Shown piece after piece: positions 47,683 through 55,999 of a DNA stretch of 64,000 nt. The DNA is taken from NCBI RefSeq assembly GCF_021202945.1, contig NZ_JAJOYR010000001.1, positions 1,426,001-1,490,000 on the forward strand. The letters run 5' to 3'. The position numbers were made by a program, and so were the translations under genes. Positions within the stretch are counted from its first letter, which is position 1. Every line of letters starts with the position of its first letter. The stretch is from Stenotrophomonas sp. SY1. GTDB taxonomy: Bacteria; Pseudomonadota; Gammaproteobacteria; Xanthomonadales; Xanthomonadaceae. The notes beneath the pieces were generated by a model that was not told the origin of the DNA, made no database searches, and saw only the letters and a program-made list of their open reading frames with translations.

Positions 47683-48918
47683 CTACGCGGTCTTGCCCGG
47701 CACCAGGCCGGTGTAACGCGCACGTGGCCGGATCAGCGTGCCCAGCGCCTGCTGTTCCAGCGCATGCGCCAGCCAGCCGGTGAGGCGGGCGGTGGCGAAG
47801 ATCACCAGCGCGTGTGATGCAGGCAATTCGTATGCGTAGCAGATCGCCGCCAGCAGGCCGTCGATGTTCGGATGCTGGCCGCTGTTGTCGGCTGCCGCCG
47901 CCAGCACCGTTTCGATGTGCAGCATCTGCGGCGTATCGCCGCGTAGTTCGCGCAACAGCCGCAGGACTTCGGCGCCGCGCGGGTCGCCGTCCGGGTACAG
48001 GACGTGATTGAAGCCGGGCAGGTCGTCGCCGCGCCGCCAGCGCTCGGCAATGAAGTTGGCCGGCGCGCCGCTGGCCTTGGCGTCCAGCAGCAGCGCATGT
48101 GCACGCGCGGTGGCGCCGCCGTGGCGCGGCCCGGACATCGCCGCCAGGCCGGCACAGACGGTGGCGTGCAGATGCGCGCCGGTCGATGCCACCACACGCG
48201 CTGCGAAAGCGGACACGTTGAGTTCGTGATCGGCGCAGACGACCAATGCCGCGCGCAGCACTTCGGCAAAGTCTTCGTCGCCGGGACGCCAGCTGTCGGC
48301 CAGCAGGCGGTGCACCGGGCGCGCGTCGGGCTGCACGCCGACCAGCAGCGCGGCGTTCTGACGCAGCAGCATCGCGGCCACTTCGCGGCGGACTGGTGCA
48401 GCGGCGTTGAGCGATTGGCGTTGCTCGAGGGCGAGCAGGGGCAGGCAGGCCATGGCCCGTTCCAGTGGCGGCAGCGAGCTGTCCAGCGCCAGGCCGGTGA
48501 TGCGCTCGGGCCAGGCTTGTGGGGCGGTGGCAGCGAACGGGTCCTGTTCTTCGCAATCCCACAGCAGGCGCGCGATGTCTTCCAGGGTGGCACCGCTGCG
48601 CGCGGCGGCGACCGCCGAGCGGCCGCGGTAGTAAGGGGAGTCCGGCTGGATCAGCGAGATACTGGTTTCCAGCACCGGCAGGCCACGGTCCAGGCTCTGC
48701 GCGGCGCCGCGCGCTGCCCCGCGTCCGGCCCGCTTGCGTTGTGCCAGCCGCTCGACCTCGGCCCGGAGGTACACCCGGCTGCGCTGGTCTGCGCCCGGTC
48801 GCGAGCTGAGCTGACCACGGCTGACGTAGGCGTACAGCGTGGCCGGGCTGATGCCGAGCAGGGCACAGGCCTCGTTGGCAGGCATCAGTTCGGGATCGGC
48901 GTTATCGGACATGTGCAT
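47683..48918 (-). CDS. Citrate synthase-family protein with N-terminal helix-turn-helix
   Basis: A 411-residue fusion. Residues about 8-60 are an excisionase/MerR-type HTH (MPANEACALLGISPATLYAYVSRGQLSSR, with an RSRVYLRAEVERL wing). The rest is a citrate synthase fold that keeps the catalytic trio: His in SGPRHGGATA, His in GFNHVLYPDGDPRG, and Asp in NIDGLLAAI. It is divergent from prpB across 108 bases of palindrome-rich DNA. It may be a metabolite-sensing regulator of the prp genes, an extra citrate/methylcitrate synthase, or both. No ribosome site marks the ATG at 48918 or 48912. Confidence 0.83.
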   Translation of the reverse strand: MHMSDNADPELMPANEACALLGISPATLYAYVSRGQLSSRPGADQRSRVYLRAEVERLAQRKRAGRGAARGAAQSLDRGLPVLETSISLIQPDSPYYRGRSAVAAARSGATLEDIARLLWDCEEQDPFAATAPQAWPERITGLALDSSLPPLERAMACLPLLALEQRQSLNAAAPVRREVAAMLLRQNAALLVGVQPDARPVHRLLADSWRPGDEDFAEVLRAALVVCADHELNVSAFAARVVASTGAHLHATVCAGLAAMSGPRHGGATARAHALLLDAKASGAPANFIAERWRRGDDLPGFNHVLYPDGDPRGAEVLRLLRELRGDTPQMLHIETVLAAAADNSGQHPNIDGLLAAICYAYELPASHALVIFATARLTGWLAHALEQQALGTLIRPRARYTGLVPGKTA

Positions 48919-48926
48919 TCAATATG

Positions 48927-48983
48927 TTGATTAATTGAATCAAGATTGATCAATGTTTGCGATAGTGACAGATTGTTTGTCAC
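48927..48983. promoter_or_regulatory. Palindromes in the HTH-citrate synthase / prpB divergent region
   Basis: TTGATT-5-AATCAA (48927-48943), the perfect 8-mer TTGATCAA (48946-48953), and GTGACA-7-TGTCAC (48965-48983), all within 57 bases. The first lies nine bases before the fusion gene's ATG. They are candidate operators for regulation of both directions, including self-regulation. Local AT content is well above that of the neighbours. Confidence 0.6.
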
Positions 48984-49026
48984 AGCGGAATGGCATCGTC
49001 GCCACCGCCAAGTCAGGAGCCATGCC

Positions 49027-50053: not shown

Positions 50054-51211
50054 ATGTCTGAATCCACCGCCGCACCGGCGTTCAAGCCGAAGAAGTCCGT
50101 CGCCCTGTCCGGCACCGCCGCAGGCAACACCGCGCTGTGTACCGTCGGCCGTAGCGGCAACGACCTGCACTATCGCGGCTACGACATCCTGGACCTGGCC
50201 AACACCAGCGAGTTCGAGGAAATCGCTCACCTGCTGGTGCATGGCAAGCTGCCGAACAAGGCTGAACTGCGTGCCTACAAGGCCAAGTTGAAGGCGCTGC
50301 GTGGCATCCCGGCGGCGGTCAAGGCCGCGCTGGAAGAGCTGCCGCCGTCGGCGCACCCGATGGACGTGATGCGCACCGGCGTGTCGGTGATGGGCTGCGT
50401 GTCGCCGGAGAAGGACGACCACAACCACCCGGGCGCGCGCGACATCGCCGACAAGCTGATGGCTTCGCTCGGCTCGATGCTGCTGTACTGGTACCACTGG
50501 AGCCACAACGGCAAGGTCATCGACGTGGAAACCGACGATGACTCCATCGGCGGTCACTTCCTGCACCTGCTGCACGGCGAGCAGCCGCGCGAGTCGTGGG
50601 TCAAGGCGATGCACACCAGCCTGATCCTGTACGCAGAGCACGAGTTCAACGCTTCGACCTTTGCCTGCCGCGTCATCGCCGGCACCGGCAGCGACATGTA
50701 CAGCGCCATCACCGGCGGCATCGGCGCACTGCGCGGGCCCAAGCACGGTGGTGCCAACGAAGTCGCCTTCGAAGTGCAGAAGCGTTACGAAACGCCGGAT
50801 GAGGCCGAGGCCGACATCAAGGCACGCGTGGAGCGCAAGGAAGTGGTCATCGGCTTCGGTCACCCGGTCTACACCGTGTCCGATCCGCGCAACAAGGTGA
50901 TCAAGGACGTCTCGCGCGAGCTGTCGGCCGAGCAGGAAAACATGAAGATGTACGACATCGCCGAGCGTCTGGAGACGGTGATGTGGGACATCAAGAAGAT
51001 GTTCCCGAACCTGGATTGGTTCAGTGCCGTCAGCTACCACATGATGGGCGTGCCGACCGCGATGTTCACCCCGCTGTTCGTGATCGCACGTACCGCCGGT
51101 TGGAGCGCGCACATCATCGAGCAGCGCATCGACGGCAAGATCATCCGCCCGAGCGCGAACTACACCGGCCCGGAAGACCAGACCTTCGTGCCGTTGGACA
51201 AGCGCGCGTAA
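50054..51211 (+). CDS. prpC: 2-methylcitrate synthase
   Basis: A 385-residue synthase joining propionyl-CoA with oxaloacetate. Catalytic His in GPKHGGANE, His in [13 protein letters not shown] and Asp in [13 protein letters not shown] are present. [15 protein letters not shown] and [14 protein letters not shown] point to the methylcitrate branch. Second gene of the operon. Confidence 0.94.
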
Positions 51212-51460: not shown

Positions 51461-54076
51461 ATGAACACCGATTACCGCAAGCATCTTCCCGGCAGCAAGC
51501 TGGACTATTTCGACGCGCAGGCCGCTGTCGAGGCGATCGCGCCCGGCGCCTACGCCACGCTGCCGTACACCTCGCGCGTGCTGGCCGAAAACCTGGTGCG
51601 CCGCTGCAACCCGGCCACGCTGACCGATTCGCTCAAGCAGCTGATCGAACGCAAGCGCGACCTCGATTTCCCGTGGTTCCCGGCCCGCGTGGTGTGCCAC
51701 GACATCCTCGGCCAGACCGCGTTGGTCGATCTGGCCGGTTTGCGTGATGCCATCGCCGACAAGGGCGGTGATCCGGCCAAGGTCAATCCGGTGGTGCCGG
51801 TGCAGTTGATCGTGGATCACTCGCTGGCGGTGGAGTGCGGTGGCTACGATCCGGATGCGTTCGCCAAGAACCGCGCCATCGAAGACCGTCGCAACGAAGA
51901 CCGCTTCCACTTCATCGACTGGACCAAGCTGGCCTTCGAGAACGTGGACGTGATCCCGCCGGGCAACGGCATCATGCACCAGATCAATCTGGAGAAAATG
52001 TCGCCGGTGATCTACCAGCAGGGCGGCGTGGCATTCCCGGATACCTGCGTGGGCACCGACAGCCATACCCCGCATGTCGATGCGCTGGGCGTGATCGCCA
52101 TCGGCGTGGGTGGCCTGGAAGCAGAGAACGTGATGCTCGGCCGTGCGTCGTGGATGCGCCTGCCCGACATCATCGGCGTCAAGCTGACCGGCAAGCCGCA
52201 GCCCAACATCACTGCCACCGACGTGGTGCTGGCGCTCACCGAATTCCTGCGCAAGGAACGCGTGGTGGGTGCGTGGCTGGAGTTCTTCGGTGAAGGTGCG
52301 GCGGCGCTGACCATCGGCGACCGCGCCACCATTTCCAACATGTGCCCGGAGTACGGCGCGACGGCGGCGATGTTCTACATCGACCAGCAGACCATCGACT
52401 ACCTGCGCCTGACCGGCCGCGAGGAAGCACAGCTGGAGCTGGTCGAGAGCTACGCAAAGACCACCGGCCTGTGGGCCGACGCGTTGGTCACTGCAGAGTA
52501 CGAGCGGGTGCTGGAGTTCGATCTGTCCAGCGTCGTGCGCAACATGGCCGGCCCCAGCAATCCGCACAAGCGTCTGCCGGTGTCGGACCTGGCTGAGCGG
52601 GGCATCGCTGACGAAGCCAAGCTCGAATCGGGCAAGGCTGAGGAAGCGCAGGGGCTGATGCCCGATGGCGCGGTGATCATTGCTGCCATCACCAGCTGCA
52701 CCAATACCTCCAATCCGCGAAACGTGATTGCTGCCGCACTGCTGGCGCGCAATGCCAATGCGCGTGGTTTGATCCGCAAGCCGTGGGTGAAGTCGTCGCT
52801 GGCGCCGGGCTCCAAGGCGGTGCAGCTGTACCTGGAGGAATCCGGCCTGCTGCCGGACCTGGAAAAACTGGGCTTCGGCATCGTCGCCTTCGCCTGCACC
52901 ACGTGCAACGGCATGAGCGGTGCGTTGGACCCGAAGATCCAGCAGGAAATCATTGATCGCGATCTGTACTCGACTGCGGTGTTGTCGGGCAACCGCAACT
53001 TCGATGGCCGTATCCATCCGTATGCCAAGCAGGCCTTCCTGGCATCGCCGCCATTGGTGATCGCCTATGCCATTGCCGGCACCGTGCGTTTCGACATCGA
53101 GAAGGACGTGCTGGGCATCGATGCCGAGGGCAACGAAGTGCGCCTGAAGGACATCTGGCCGAGCGATGCGGAAATTGATGCGGTGGTGAAGGCCTCGGTC
53201 AAGCCGGAGCAGTTCCGCAGCGTCTACAACCCGATGTTCAACGTGCGCGTCGAGCATGGCGAGAAGGTCAGCCCGTTGTACGACTGGCGCCCGCAGAGCA
53301 CCTATATCCGCCGTCCGCCGTATTGGGAGGGTGCATTGGCCGGTGAGCGTACGTTGCGTGGCATGCGCCCGCTGGCGGTGCTGCCGGACAACATCACCAC
53401 CGACCACCTGTCGCCGTCGAACGCGATCCTGCTGTCCAGCGCGGCCGGTGAATACCTGGCCAAGATGGGCCTGCCGGAAGAAGACTTCAATTCCTACGCC
53501 ACCCATCGCGGCGATCACCTCACCGCGCAGCGCGCCACGTTTGCCAACCCGAAGCTGTTCAACGAAATGGTGCGCAACGAAGACGGCAGCGTGAAGCAGG
53601 GCTCGCTGGCGCGCGTGGAGCCGGAAGGCAAGGTCATGCGCATGTGGGAGGCGATCGAGACCTACATGGAGCGCAAGCAGCCGCTGATCATCATTGCCGG
53701 CGCCGACTACGGCCAGGGCAGCTCGCGCGACTGGGCGGCCAAGGGTGTGCGTCTGGCGGGTGTGGAGGCGATTGCGGCCGAAGGCTTCGAACGCATCCAT
53801 CGCACCAACCTGATCGGCATGGGCGTGTTGCCGCTGGAGTTCAAGCCGGGCACCGACCGCAATACGCTGGGCATCGACGGCACCGAAACCTACGACGTGC
53901 AGGGCCTGCGTACGCCGCGCGCCGAGCTGTCGCTGGTGATCAACCGCCGTGACGGCACGGTGCTGAAAGTGCCGGTGACCTGCCGTTTGGATTCGGACGA
54001 AGAAGTTGCGATCTACGAAGCTGGCGGCGTGTTGCAGCGGTTTGCGCAGGATTTTCTGGAGGGTTCGGTTGCGTGA
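51461..54076 (+). CDS. acnD: Fe/S-dependent 2-methylcitrate dehydratase
   Basis: An 871-residue aconitase-superfamily enzyme that, with PrpF, replaces PrpD in converting 2-methylcitrate to 2-methylaconitate. The iron-sulfur cysteines are in ITSCTNTSNPRN and CTTCNGMSG. The start MNTDYRKHLPG and the overall length fit AcnD rather than AcnA. Third gene of the prp operon. Confidence 0.94.
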   Translation: MNTDYRKHLPGSKLDYFDAQAAVEAIAPGAYATLPYTSRVLAENLVRRCNPATLTDSLKQLIERKRDLDFPWFPARVVCHDILGQTALVDLAGLRDAIADKGGDPAKVNPVVPVQLIVDHSLAVECGGYDPDAFAKNRAIEDRRNEDRFHFIDWTKLAFENVDVIPPGNGIMHQINLEKMSPVIYQQGGVAFPDTCVGTDSHTPHVDALGVIAIGVGGLEAENVMLGRASWMRLPDIIGVKLTGKPQPNITATDVVLALTEFLRKERVVGAWLEFFGEGAAALTIGDRATISNMCPEYGATAAMFYIDQQTIDYLRLTGREEAQLELVESYAKTTGLWADALVTAEYERVLEFDLSSVVRNMAGPSNPHKRLPVSDLAERGIADEAKLESGKAEEAQGLMPDGAVIIAAITSCTNTSNPRNVIAAALLARNANARGLIRKPWVKSSLAPGSKAVQLYLEESGLLPDLEKLGFGIVAFACTTCNGMSGALDPKIQQEIIDRDLYSTAVLSGNRNFDGRIHPYAKQAFLASPPLVIAYAIAGTVRFDIEKDVLGIDAEGNEVRLKDIWPSDAEIDAVVKASVKPEQFRSVYNPMFNVRVEHGEKVSPLYDWRPQSTYIRRPPYWEGALAGERTLRGMRPLAVLPDNITTDHLSPSNAILLSSAAGEYLAKMGLPEEDFNSYATHRGDHLTAQRATFANPKLFNEMVRNEDGSVKQGSLARVEPEGKVMRMWEAIETYMERKQPLIIIAGADYGQGSSRDWAAKGVRLAGVEAIAAEGFERIHRTNLIGMGVLPLEFKPGTDRNTLGIDGTETYDVQGLRTPRAELSLVINRRDGTVLKVPVTCRLDSDEEVAIYEAGGVLQRFAQDFLEGSVA

Positions 54077-54086
54077 AGTAAAGCCT

Positions 54087-54205
54087 CACCCTCTCCCCCA
54101 ACCCCTCTCCCGTGAAGGGAGAGGGGAGTAGCGATCAAGCTGCTGCGCGAGAACTGTAAGGCTGCATGAATCCAAAGCCCCTCTCCCCTTGTGGGGTGAG
54201 AGGGG
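54087..54205. repeat. Left repeat flank of the DUF559 cassette
   Basis: A 40-base element (54087-54126) with the palindrome CCCCTCTCCC-gtgaa-GGGAGAGGGG, then 51 bases, then a second hairpin (54178-54205). The 40-base part recurs with one mismatch at 54627-54666, exactly 540 bases on, in the same orientation. Confidence 0.9.
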
Positions 54206-54303
54206 CAGCCTACGAACCACCGGTTCGTTGCCCATCGAACGCCCTTGCGCAAGGGCCGGGGCGCGGAGCGGGGGTTGGGGAGGGGGCAAAGGAGGCCCCG
54301 GTC

Positions 54304-54684
54304 ATGCAGAAACTAAAGTTCGCAAAACAGCTGCGCAGGAACATGACCGACGCCGAACAACTGCTCTGGCGTCACCTTCGAGCCCACCGGCTGCTCGGGC
54401 AGAAGTTTCGCCGCCAGCAGCCGTTGGGCCCATACATCGTGGACTTCGTGCATTTCGGTGTACGGGTGATCGTGGAAGCGGATGGAGGGCAGCACAACCA
54501 GAGCTCGCGTGATGCTGTACGCGATGCTTGGTTGAAATCGCAGGGCTTCAAGGTGCTGCGATTCTGGAACAACGAGATTCTGGGAGAGTGTGAAGCGGTG
54601 CTAGAGGTGATTCTCAAGACGGTGAGCACCCTCTCCCCCAGCCCCTCTCCCGTGAAGGGAGAGGGGGGCAAGAGTGGTTCATGA
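54304..54684 (+). CDS. DUF559 endonuclease-like protein inserted in the prp operon
   Basis: A 126-residue protein with the DUF559 (VSR/restriction-nuclease-fold) pattern: MTDAEQLLWRHLRAHR, GQKFRRQQPLGPYIVDF, VEADGGQH and GFKVLRFWNNEIL, including the D...E-D-Q/H acidic set expected of the PD-(D/E)xK fold. A perfect AAAGGAGG (54288-54295) stands eight bases before the ATG. Its last 18 or so residues (LSPSPSPVKGEG...) are encoded by the right-hand repeat, so the gene has grown into it. It splits acnD from prpF. Nuclease activity is inferred. Confidence 0.87.
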   Translation: MQKLKFAKQLRRNMTDAEQLLWRHLRAHRLLGQKFRRQQPLGPYIVDFVHFGVRVIVEADGGQHNQSSRDAVRDAWLKSQGFKVLRFWNNEILGECEAVLEVILKTVSTLSPSPSPVKGEGGKSGS

Positions 54685-54747
54685 CGTCGGTAGAAATGCC
54701 GGCACTCGCTGTAAACAAAAAGCCCCTCTCCCCTCGCGGGAGAGGGG
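54627..54747. repeat. Right repeat flank of the DUF559 cassette
   Basis: Direct copy (54627-54666; one mismatch in 40) of the left element, then 56 bases, then the hairpin CCCCTCTCCC-ctcgc-GGGAGAGGGG (54723-54747). The order of elements is the same as on the left. Confidence 0.9.
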
Positions 54748-54805
54748 TTGGGGAGAGGGGGCTGATCCCATGCCCACAACCCAACAACCCAAGGAAACCG
54801 ACTCA

Positions 54806-55999
54806 ATGTCCCGCGCCCCCCAGATCAAGATCCCCGCCACCTACATGCGCGGCGGCACTTCCAAAGGCGTGTTCTTCCGCCTGGAAGACCTGCCGACCAG
54901 CGCGCAGGTGCCGGGCGCGGCACGTGACCATCTGCTGCAGCGGGTGATCGGGTCGCCCGATCCCTATGCCAAGCAAACCGATGGCATGGGCGGTGCGACA
55001 TCCAGCACCAGCAAATGCGTGATCGTCTCGCCCAGCAGCAAGCCCGATCACGATATCGACTATCTGTACGGCCAAGTGTCCATCGATACCGATTTCGTCG
55101 ACTGGTCCGGCAACTGCGGCAATCTGTCCACCGGTGCGGGTGCGTTCGCACTGCATGCCGGCTATGTCGATGCGTCGCGCGTGCCGGAGAACGGCATCTG
55201 CGCGGTGCGTATCTGGCAGGCCAACATCAACAAGACCATCATCGCGCACGTGCCGGTCAGCAATGGCCAGGTACAGGAAACCGGTGACTTCGAACTGGAT
55301 GGGGTGACCTTCCCGGCGGCGGAGATCGTGCTGGAGTTCATCGATCCGGCCGACGAGGGTGAAGGCGAGGGTGGCGGTGCGATGTTCCCGACCGGCAACC
55401 TCGTGGACGCACTGGAGGTGCCGGGCGTCGGTACGTTGCAGGCAACCATGATCACTGCCGGCATCCCGACCGTGTTCGTCAACGCCGAAGAAATTGGCTA
55501 CCAGGGCACCGAACTGCAGCCGGCAATCAATGAGGACAAGGTCGCATTGGCGAAGCTTGAAGCCATCCGCGTGGCCGGTGCGCTGCGCATGGGCCTGATC
55601 AAGGCGCCGGAAGAAGCACTCAAGCGCCAGCACACGCCGAAGGTGGTGTTCGTCAACCGTGCCCTGGATTACACCAGCTCGGCAGGAAAGGGCGTCCTCG
55701 CCGGTGAGATCGACCTCAACGCACGTGCGATGTCGATGGGTAAATTGCACCACGCGATGATGGGTACCGCTTCGGTGGCCATTGCCACGGCGGCCGCGGT
55801 GCCGGGCACGCTGGTGAACCAGGCAGCCGGCGGCGGCCAGCGCAACGCGGTGCGCTTCGGCCATCCGTCCGGCACGCTGCGCGTCGGTGCCGAGGTGTCG
55901 CTGGTGGATGGTCAATGGACCGTGACCAAGGCAGTGATGAGCCGCAGCGCACGCATTCTCATGGAAGGCTGGGTTCGCGTGCCGGGCGACGCATTCTGA
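54806..55999 (+). CDS. prpF: 2-methylaconitate isomerase
   Basis: A 397-residue diaminopimelate-epimerase-fold protein, needed for AcnD function. ATYMRGGTSKGVFF at the N terminus, VDWSGNCGNLSTGAGAFA around the first catalytic Cys, and GGGQRNAVRFGHPSGT later are the PrpF landmarks. I chose the ATG at 54806, which has AAGGAAA upstream; 54770 is an alternative. Last gene of the operon. Confidence 0.94.
   Translation: MSRAPQIKIPATYMRGGTSKGVFFRLEDLPTSAQVPGAARDHLLQRVIGSPDPYAKQTDGMGGATSSTSKCVIVSPSSKPDHDIDYLYGQVSIDTDFVDWSGNCGNLSTGAGAFALHAGYVDASRVPENGICAVRIWQANINKTIIAHVPVSNGQVQETGDFELDGVTFPAAEIVLEFIDPADEGEGEGGGAMFPTGNLVDALEVPGVGTLQATMITAGIPTVFVNAEEIGYQGTELQPAINEDKVALAKLEAIRVAGALRMGLIKAPEEALKRQHTPKVVFVNRALDYTSSAGKGVLAGEIDLNARAMSMGKLHHAMMGTASVAIATAAAVPGTLVNQAAGGGQRNAVRFGHPSGTLRVGAEVSLVDGQWTVTKAVMSRSARILMEGWVRVPGDAF

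Follow-up and report, generated by a model that had tools for sequence, protein, structure and literature searches.

The question raised by this locus is whether a protein carrying a DNA-binding domain on a citrate synthase body serves as an enzyme or as the regulator of the prp operon that it faces. The locus lies in the window, which is the whole stretch of 64,000 nucleotides from Stenotrophomonas sp. SY1 that was analysed. An earlier note on this DNA had used the range 47683-49026, which comprises the HTH-citrate synthase (HTH-CS) gene together with the adjoining gap and is thus more than the gene alone. The genes, domains, and codons concerned are as follows:

47683-48918, minus strand: HTH-CS fusion gene, an open reading frame (ORF) of 411 amino acids, likely start codon at 48912
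48733-48876, minus strand: HTH_17 domain, residues 15-62 (Pfam profile)
47722-48687, minus strand: Citrate_synt domain, residues 78-399 (Pfam PF00285)
48226-48228, minus strand: His231 codon
48121-48123, minus strand: His266 codon
48004-48006, minus strand: His305 codon
47860-47862, minus strand: Asp353 codon
49027-49911, plus strand: prpB, methylisocitrate lyase, the divergent neighbour of HTH-CS
50054-51211, plus strand: prpC, 2-methylcitrate synthase
51461-54076, plus strand: acnD, 2-methylisocitrate dehydratase
54806-55999, plus strand: prpF, 2-methylaconitate isomerase

The likely start of HTH-CS is placed at 48912 because its relatives begin at residue 3 of the ORF; exactly 108 bases separate the ORF from prpB, or 114 when counted from this start. 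All four prp genes are equivalog-level matches, and HTH-CS is divergent from prpBC-acnD-prpF. A DUF559 gene (PF04480, E 3.5e-41; window 54166-54684, plus strand) lies between acnD and prpF, with REP-like GC-rich repeats around it at 54087-54126, 54627-54666, and 54723-54753.

A DNA-binding head on a diverged citrate synthase body

The fusion of a DNA-binding domain to a citrate synthase, as claimed in the earlier note, is confirmed by two matches above their Pfam cut-offs of 27 bits, namely HTH_17 (E 9.5e-9, 35.8 bits) and Citrate_synt (E 1.2e-58, 199 bits); an HTH joined in this way to a citrate synthase (CS) fold is the architecture of a one-component regulator. Within HTH_17, the segment ATLYAYVSRG is nearly invariant among family members, and the HTH ranks with the best-conserved regions of the protein. 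The HTH also resembles that of the MerR family, for which the Pfam matches of HTH-CS itself stay below the cut-offs (20.7 of 28.2 bits and 19.2 of 21.6 bits) and its A. fabrum homologue clears that of MerR_1. However, MerR proteins carry a coiled coil and a small sensor after the HTH, where HTH-CS has its CS domain; a check of this segment for a coiled coil gave helices modelled with very low confidence at residues 46-77.

HTH-CS retains His231, the catalytic residues His266, His305, and Asp353 (the His, His, and Asp that the earlier note had reported as kept), and the carboxylate-binding residues Arg314, Arg378, and Arg397, in the roles that established citrate synthase biochemistry assigns to them. 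The best alignments of the CS domain are those with M. tuberculosis CitA and related structures and cover mainly residues 209-407; its N-terminal half has diverged. The protein fails all CS equivalog cut-offs of NCBIfam widely, the best score being 150 of 332 bits, and it reaches 112 bits with the PrpC model, for which the cut-off is 550. PrpC and CitA share the fold family and the active-site residues with HTH-CS but, unlike it, are without an HTH. Two structure models of HTH-CS had mean pLDDT values of 60 and 62, which are too poor for claims about the pocket or the dimer interface; from these models we take the predicted CS fold alone, in agreement with the sequence.

Among 29 HTH-CS members compared residue by residue (the gltA row, an antisense frame, was left out), the catalytic three are retained in 26 and the three arginines in all 29; three distant members have lost catalytic residues while keeping the arginines and an HTH. 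Such a pattern fits a pocket that may have been retained for carboxylate binding rather than for catalysis. The three distant members (loci L123, L124, and L078) are candidate pseudoenzyme sensors, and their surroundings include a Rieske-type dioxygenase, an AtuA-family gene, and a binding-protein-like gene. Further, the pocket residues differ by lineage and by adjoining operon: Asn234 is replaced by Thr in HTH-CS proteins of Burkholderiales and Thioclava, many of them adjoining hydroxyacid-dehydrogenase genes, and some of these proteins also have Gln in place of His231. The genome studied here contains three CS-domain genes, namely prpC, HTH-CS, and one elsewhere that we take for gltA; with gltA and prpC present besides HTH-CS, the genome is therefore not missing a synthase.

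A predicted operator linked to HTH-CS genes

When 15 Xanthomonadales loci were aligned across the gap, one conserved block was found, TTGATT-N6-ATCAAGATTGATC. The elements of the gap are as follows:

48927-48949, minus strand: predicted operator TCAATCTTGATTCAATTAATCAA, given in the direction that runs towards HTH-CS (23 bp, comparative)
48927-48943: first palindrome, TTGATT-N5-AATCAA, within the operator
48945-48954: second palindrome, ATTGATCAAT, its left part within the operator
48965-48983: third palindrome, GTGAC-N9-GTCAC
48946-48974, plus strand: tentative prpB promoter of weak consensus, TTGATC, 17-bp spacer, CAGATT

Of the three palindromes that the earlier note had seen in the gap, the conserved operator consists of the first and the larger part of the second (the last bases of the second vary in Xanthomonas loci), whereas the third, although palindromic here, has arms that are unconserved in most relatives and probably lies outside it. 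The operator, scored as the 23-bp pattern TCAATnTTGAT-n7-ATCAA, reads as an inverted repeat, TTGAT-N7-ATCAA, plus a third half-site, TCAA, on one flank; such an arrangement would be appropriate for an oligomer built from CS dimers.

The long form of the operator matches once in the window and in none of 100 shuffles. With a single perfect site in its own 4.4-Mb genome and three more at two mismatches, the idea of a wider regulon in this organism was set aside. Across 61 related genomes, the mismatch-free operator occurs only where HTH-CS is present, once in each, adjoining the HTH-CS gene, and it is absent from all of the PrpR genomes among them. Scoring of up to 200 bp from the start of each gene gave a perfect operator upstream of 57 of 67 HTH-CS genes, many of which are close relatives and so not independent; at two mismatches or fewer, this rises to 60, leaving seven loci without a site, as compared with 5 of 3860 control segments (used in place of the reversed pattern, which contains TAG and is unfair as background). 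An even draw of 175 Pseudomonadota genomes, made later and independently, yielded 20 with HTH-CS, 16 of them new; a perfect operator accompanies 12 of these 16 genes and is lacking at the other four. In plasmid homologues that were 39-46% identical and had no part in defining the motif, the half-sites and the distances between them are unchanged (Agrobacterium, Chelatococcus, Niveispirillum, Paraburkholderia, Azospirillum, Cupriavidus, Comamonas, Pararhizobium, and Roseomonas); the spacer of the Deinococcus site is one base shorter. One-mismatch sites found in a class-wide pattern search in three genomes without an HTH-CS match (G281, G191, and G262) were treated as chance. The HTH-CS genes at L147, L155, and L156 lack the operator, and the divergent reading frames at the first two resemble cation-efflux (CDF-type) transporters by eye.

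Because the operator persists while the divergent partners differ, it follows the regulator and not the target operon. Xanthomonadaceae have prpB as the partner, and G047, whose locus lacks prpB, has acnD-prpF. The place is taken by a second citrate synthase in rhizobia, Chelatococcus, Niveispirillum, and G053, and by D-2-hydroxyacid dehydrogenase operons in Burkholderiales and Thioclava; Azospirillum has a CoA-transferase there, and Deinococcus an HMGL-like enzyme. In the Xanthomonadales, the divergent pairing with the prp genes held at 43 of 43 loci checked (prpB at 42, acnD at 1). At the G053 locus (L064, 8744-11130), HTH-CS and the divergent citrate synthase are both frame-broken at a similar relative position, through either sequencing error or real decay.

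Exchange of HTH-CS with sigma-54 PrpR

The classical sigma-54 PrpR (PF06506, PrpR_N) shares with HTH-CS the divergent place upstream of prpB and presumably the same job, but it has an unrelated, AAA+/Fis-type fold and works with a sigma-54 promoter. PrpR_N is not among the Pfam matches of the HTH-CS protein, and a sigma-54 PrpR was not found in this genome. Among 37 Stenotrophomonas genomes, PrpR is present in 28 and HTH-CS in the other nine (two of them fragmentary), never both; among 299 Xanthomonadaceae genomes sampled, HTH-CS, with 88 occurrences, is commoner than PrpR, with 37, and again no genome has both. When only the 237 prpF-positive genomes of this family are considered, 84 have HTH-CS, 37 have PrpR, none has both, and 116 have neither by the searches used; these 116 may have a third type of regulator or none. 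Probabilities calculated for the lack of overlap between HTH-CS and PrpR take no account of common descent among the genomes.

The promoters differ as well. At all ten PrpR loci inspected, a sigma-54 promoter, TGGCA[CT]-N5-TTGC, starts 55-59 bases before prpB and the operator is absent, whereas seven inspected HTH-CS loci have the operator and no sigma-54 promoter near prpB. At the prpB gene of this window, a sigma-54 promoter was not found, the best match having three mismatches at -187. Regulator and promoter type differ together upstream of the same prp operon. The proposal of the earlier note, a one-protein sensor and regulator in the slot of PrpR, is supported by this swapped promoter type, by the lack of co-occurrence with PrpR, by an operator linked to the regulator across classes, and by the conserved pairing, and the same comparisons support the view that HTH-CS would stand in for the classical PrpR in this lineage. 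The X. citri PrpR was considered as a possible HTH-CS protein and rejected, because the paper describing it gives its similarity to Salmonella PrpR as 45% and reports binding to another motif, GTTGCAA-N2-TTGCAAC (PMC12153269).

Proposed mechanism and its alternatives

We propose that HTH-CS is a one-component regulator, with an N-terminal HTH and a CS-fold effector domain, which as a dimer or a higher oligomer would bind TCAATnTTGAT-n7-ATCAA. With sign and ligand left aside, we put the probability that it is an operator-binding, ligand-sensing regulator at roughly 0.85. A conserved predicted operator, as expected of such a regulator, lies near its own promoter and that of its target. HTH-CS very probably binds this site to control both itself and prpBC-acnD-prpF, because the operator is near its own start and shares bases with the presumed prpB -35. 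The distance from the end of the operator to the likely start codon of HTH-CS is 14 bp here and 1-42 bp elsewhere, and in several homologues a TATAAT-like element lies inside the operator; for these two reasons, autorepression is likely. On the prpB side, a constant spacer of 17 bp separates TTGATC in the operator from CAGATT or one of its variants in the relatives inspected; a strict sigma-70 scan gave no recognisable site in the gap. If TTGATC and CAGATT are the -35 and -10 of prpB, bound HTH-CS would block polymerase. Repression would then be relieved (or switched) once a CS-type ligand occupies the CS pocket. We lean towards a repressor, because of operator position only. The fold and the pathway suggest, at slightly better than even odds, that the ligand is 2-methylcitrate, propionyl-CoA, or oxaloacetate, with 2-methylcitrate, or propionyl-CoA together with oxaloacetate, as the likeliest forms. 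Certain other bacteria have a PrpR for which 2-methylcitrate serves as the coactivator (PMC9765439), whereas the X. citri PrpR is unresponsive to it (PMC12153269).

Activation is a live rival, because the tentative prpB promoter is weak: liganded HTH-CS, bound to an operator at and upstream of the -35, might recruit polymerase to it, and PrpR, whose slot it occupies, is an activator in Salmonella (PMC9765439). Self-repression is suggested by the position of the operator near the HTH-CS start and by the TATAAT-like element that it contains in several homologues, an argument that does not extend to the sign at prpB; we regard an activator as possible but doubtful.

Less likely still is a trigger enzyme, i.e., a still active synthase of citrate or 2-methylcitrate with DNA binding as a second function, in which catalytic occupancy or flux would set the regulation, as in PutA and BirA. 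While the catalytic residues are all retained here and in 26 of the 29 members, the N-terminal half of the CS domain has diverged, every CS equivalog cut-off is widely missed, three distant members that lost catalytic residues still have the HTH and the arginines, and gltA and prpC are already in this genome. An extension of this idea, equally unlikely in our estimate, holds that HTH-CS proteins across the Proteobacteria are regulators still competent as citrate or methylcitrate synthases, which would make an intermediate, read the level of substrate or product on DNA, and use one operator across unrelated acid-metabolism operons.

That the operator serves the HTH-CS gene only, with the divergent operon controlled otherwise, is improbable. 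Operator linkage alone would fit such autoregulation without prp control, as the operator invariably lies close to the start of HTH-CS while the neighbour varies, and in X. citri propionate induction of prp was seen also without PrpR, and hence other factors exist there (PMC12153269); however, the prp neighbour is kept at 43 of 43 Xanthomonadales loci, and it is precisely the loci with HTH-CS that lack PrpR and its sigma-54 promoter. Finally, we reject the reading of HTH-CS as a metabolic isozyme of citrate synthase whose HTH is vestigial. It would suit the public annotation of relatives and the kept active site, but the HTH is one of the best-conserved regions of the protein and the operator is near-invariant.

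Relation to known regulators and significance

BirA and PutA are enzyme-derived regulators with a DNA-binding head on an enzyme body and with established catalysis. HTH-CS is built likewise, but from another enzyme and another DNA-binding domain, and its catalysis is not established. The GntR-type PrpR of P. aeruginosa is likewise a one-component protein, which represses a methylcitrate operon through a palindromic site (PMC9765439), as we propose for HTH-CS, but it differs in having an FCD effector domain and the operator ATTGTCGACAAT.

Public annotation names the relatives of HTH-CS "citrate synthase family protein" or similar, and a full-text search of the open literature, outside which most subscription papers lie, returned no study that we recognised as describing a CS-domain transcription factor. 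To our knowledge, the CS fold is not known as the sensor of a one-component regulator, and we class HTH-CS, from its sequence, as a putative regulator of this kind with an enzyme-derived sensor on a fold new to that role.

The occurrence of HTH-CS qualifies the statement, quoted in PMC9765439, that all analysed Xanthomonadales use a Fis-type PrpR, and it would suggest the way in which many PrpR-less Xanthomonadaceae control toxic propionyl-CoA metabolism. Moreover, the operator would be a ready-made means of locating the targets of these proteins, which have hitherto carried no annotation other than citrate synthase. If the proposed role is true, the citrate-synthase fold would join the sensor domains of bacterial transcription factors.
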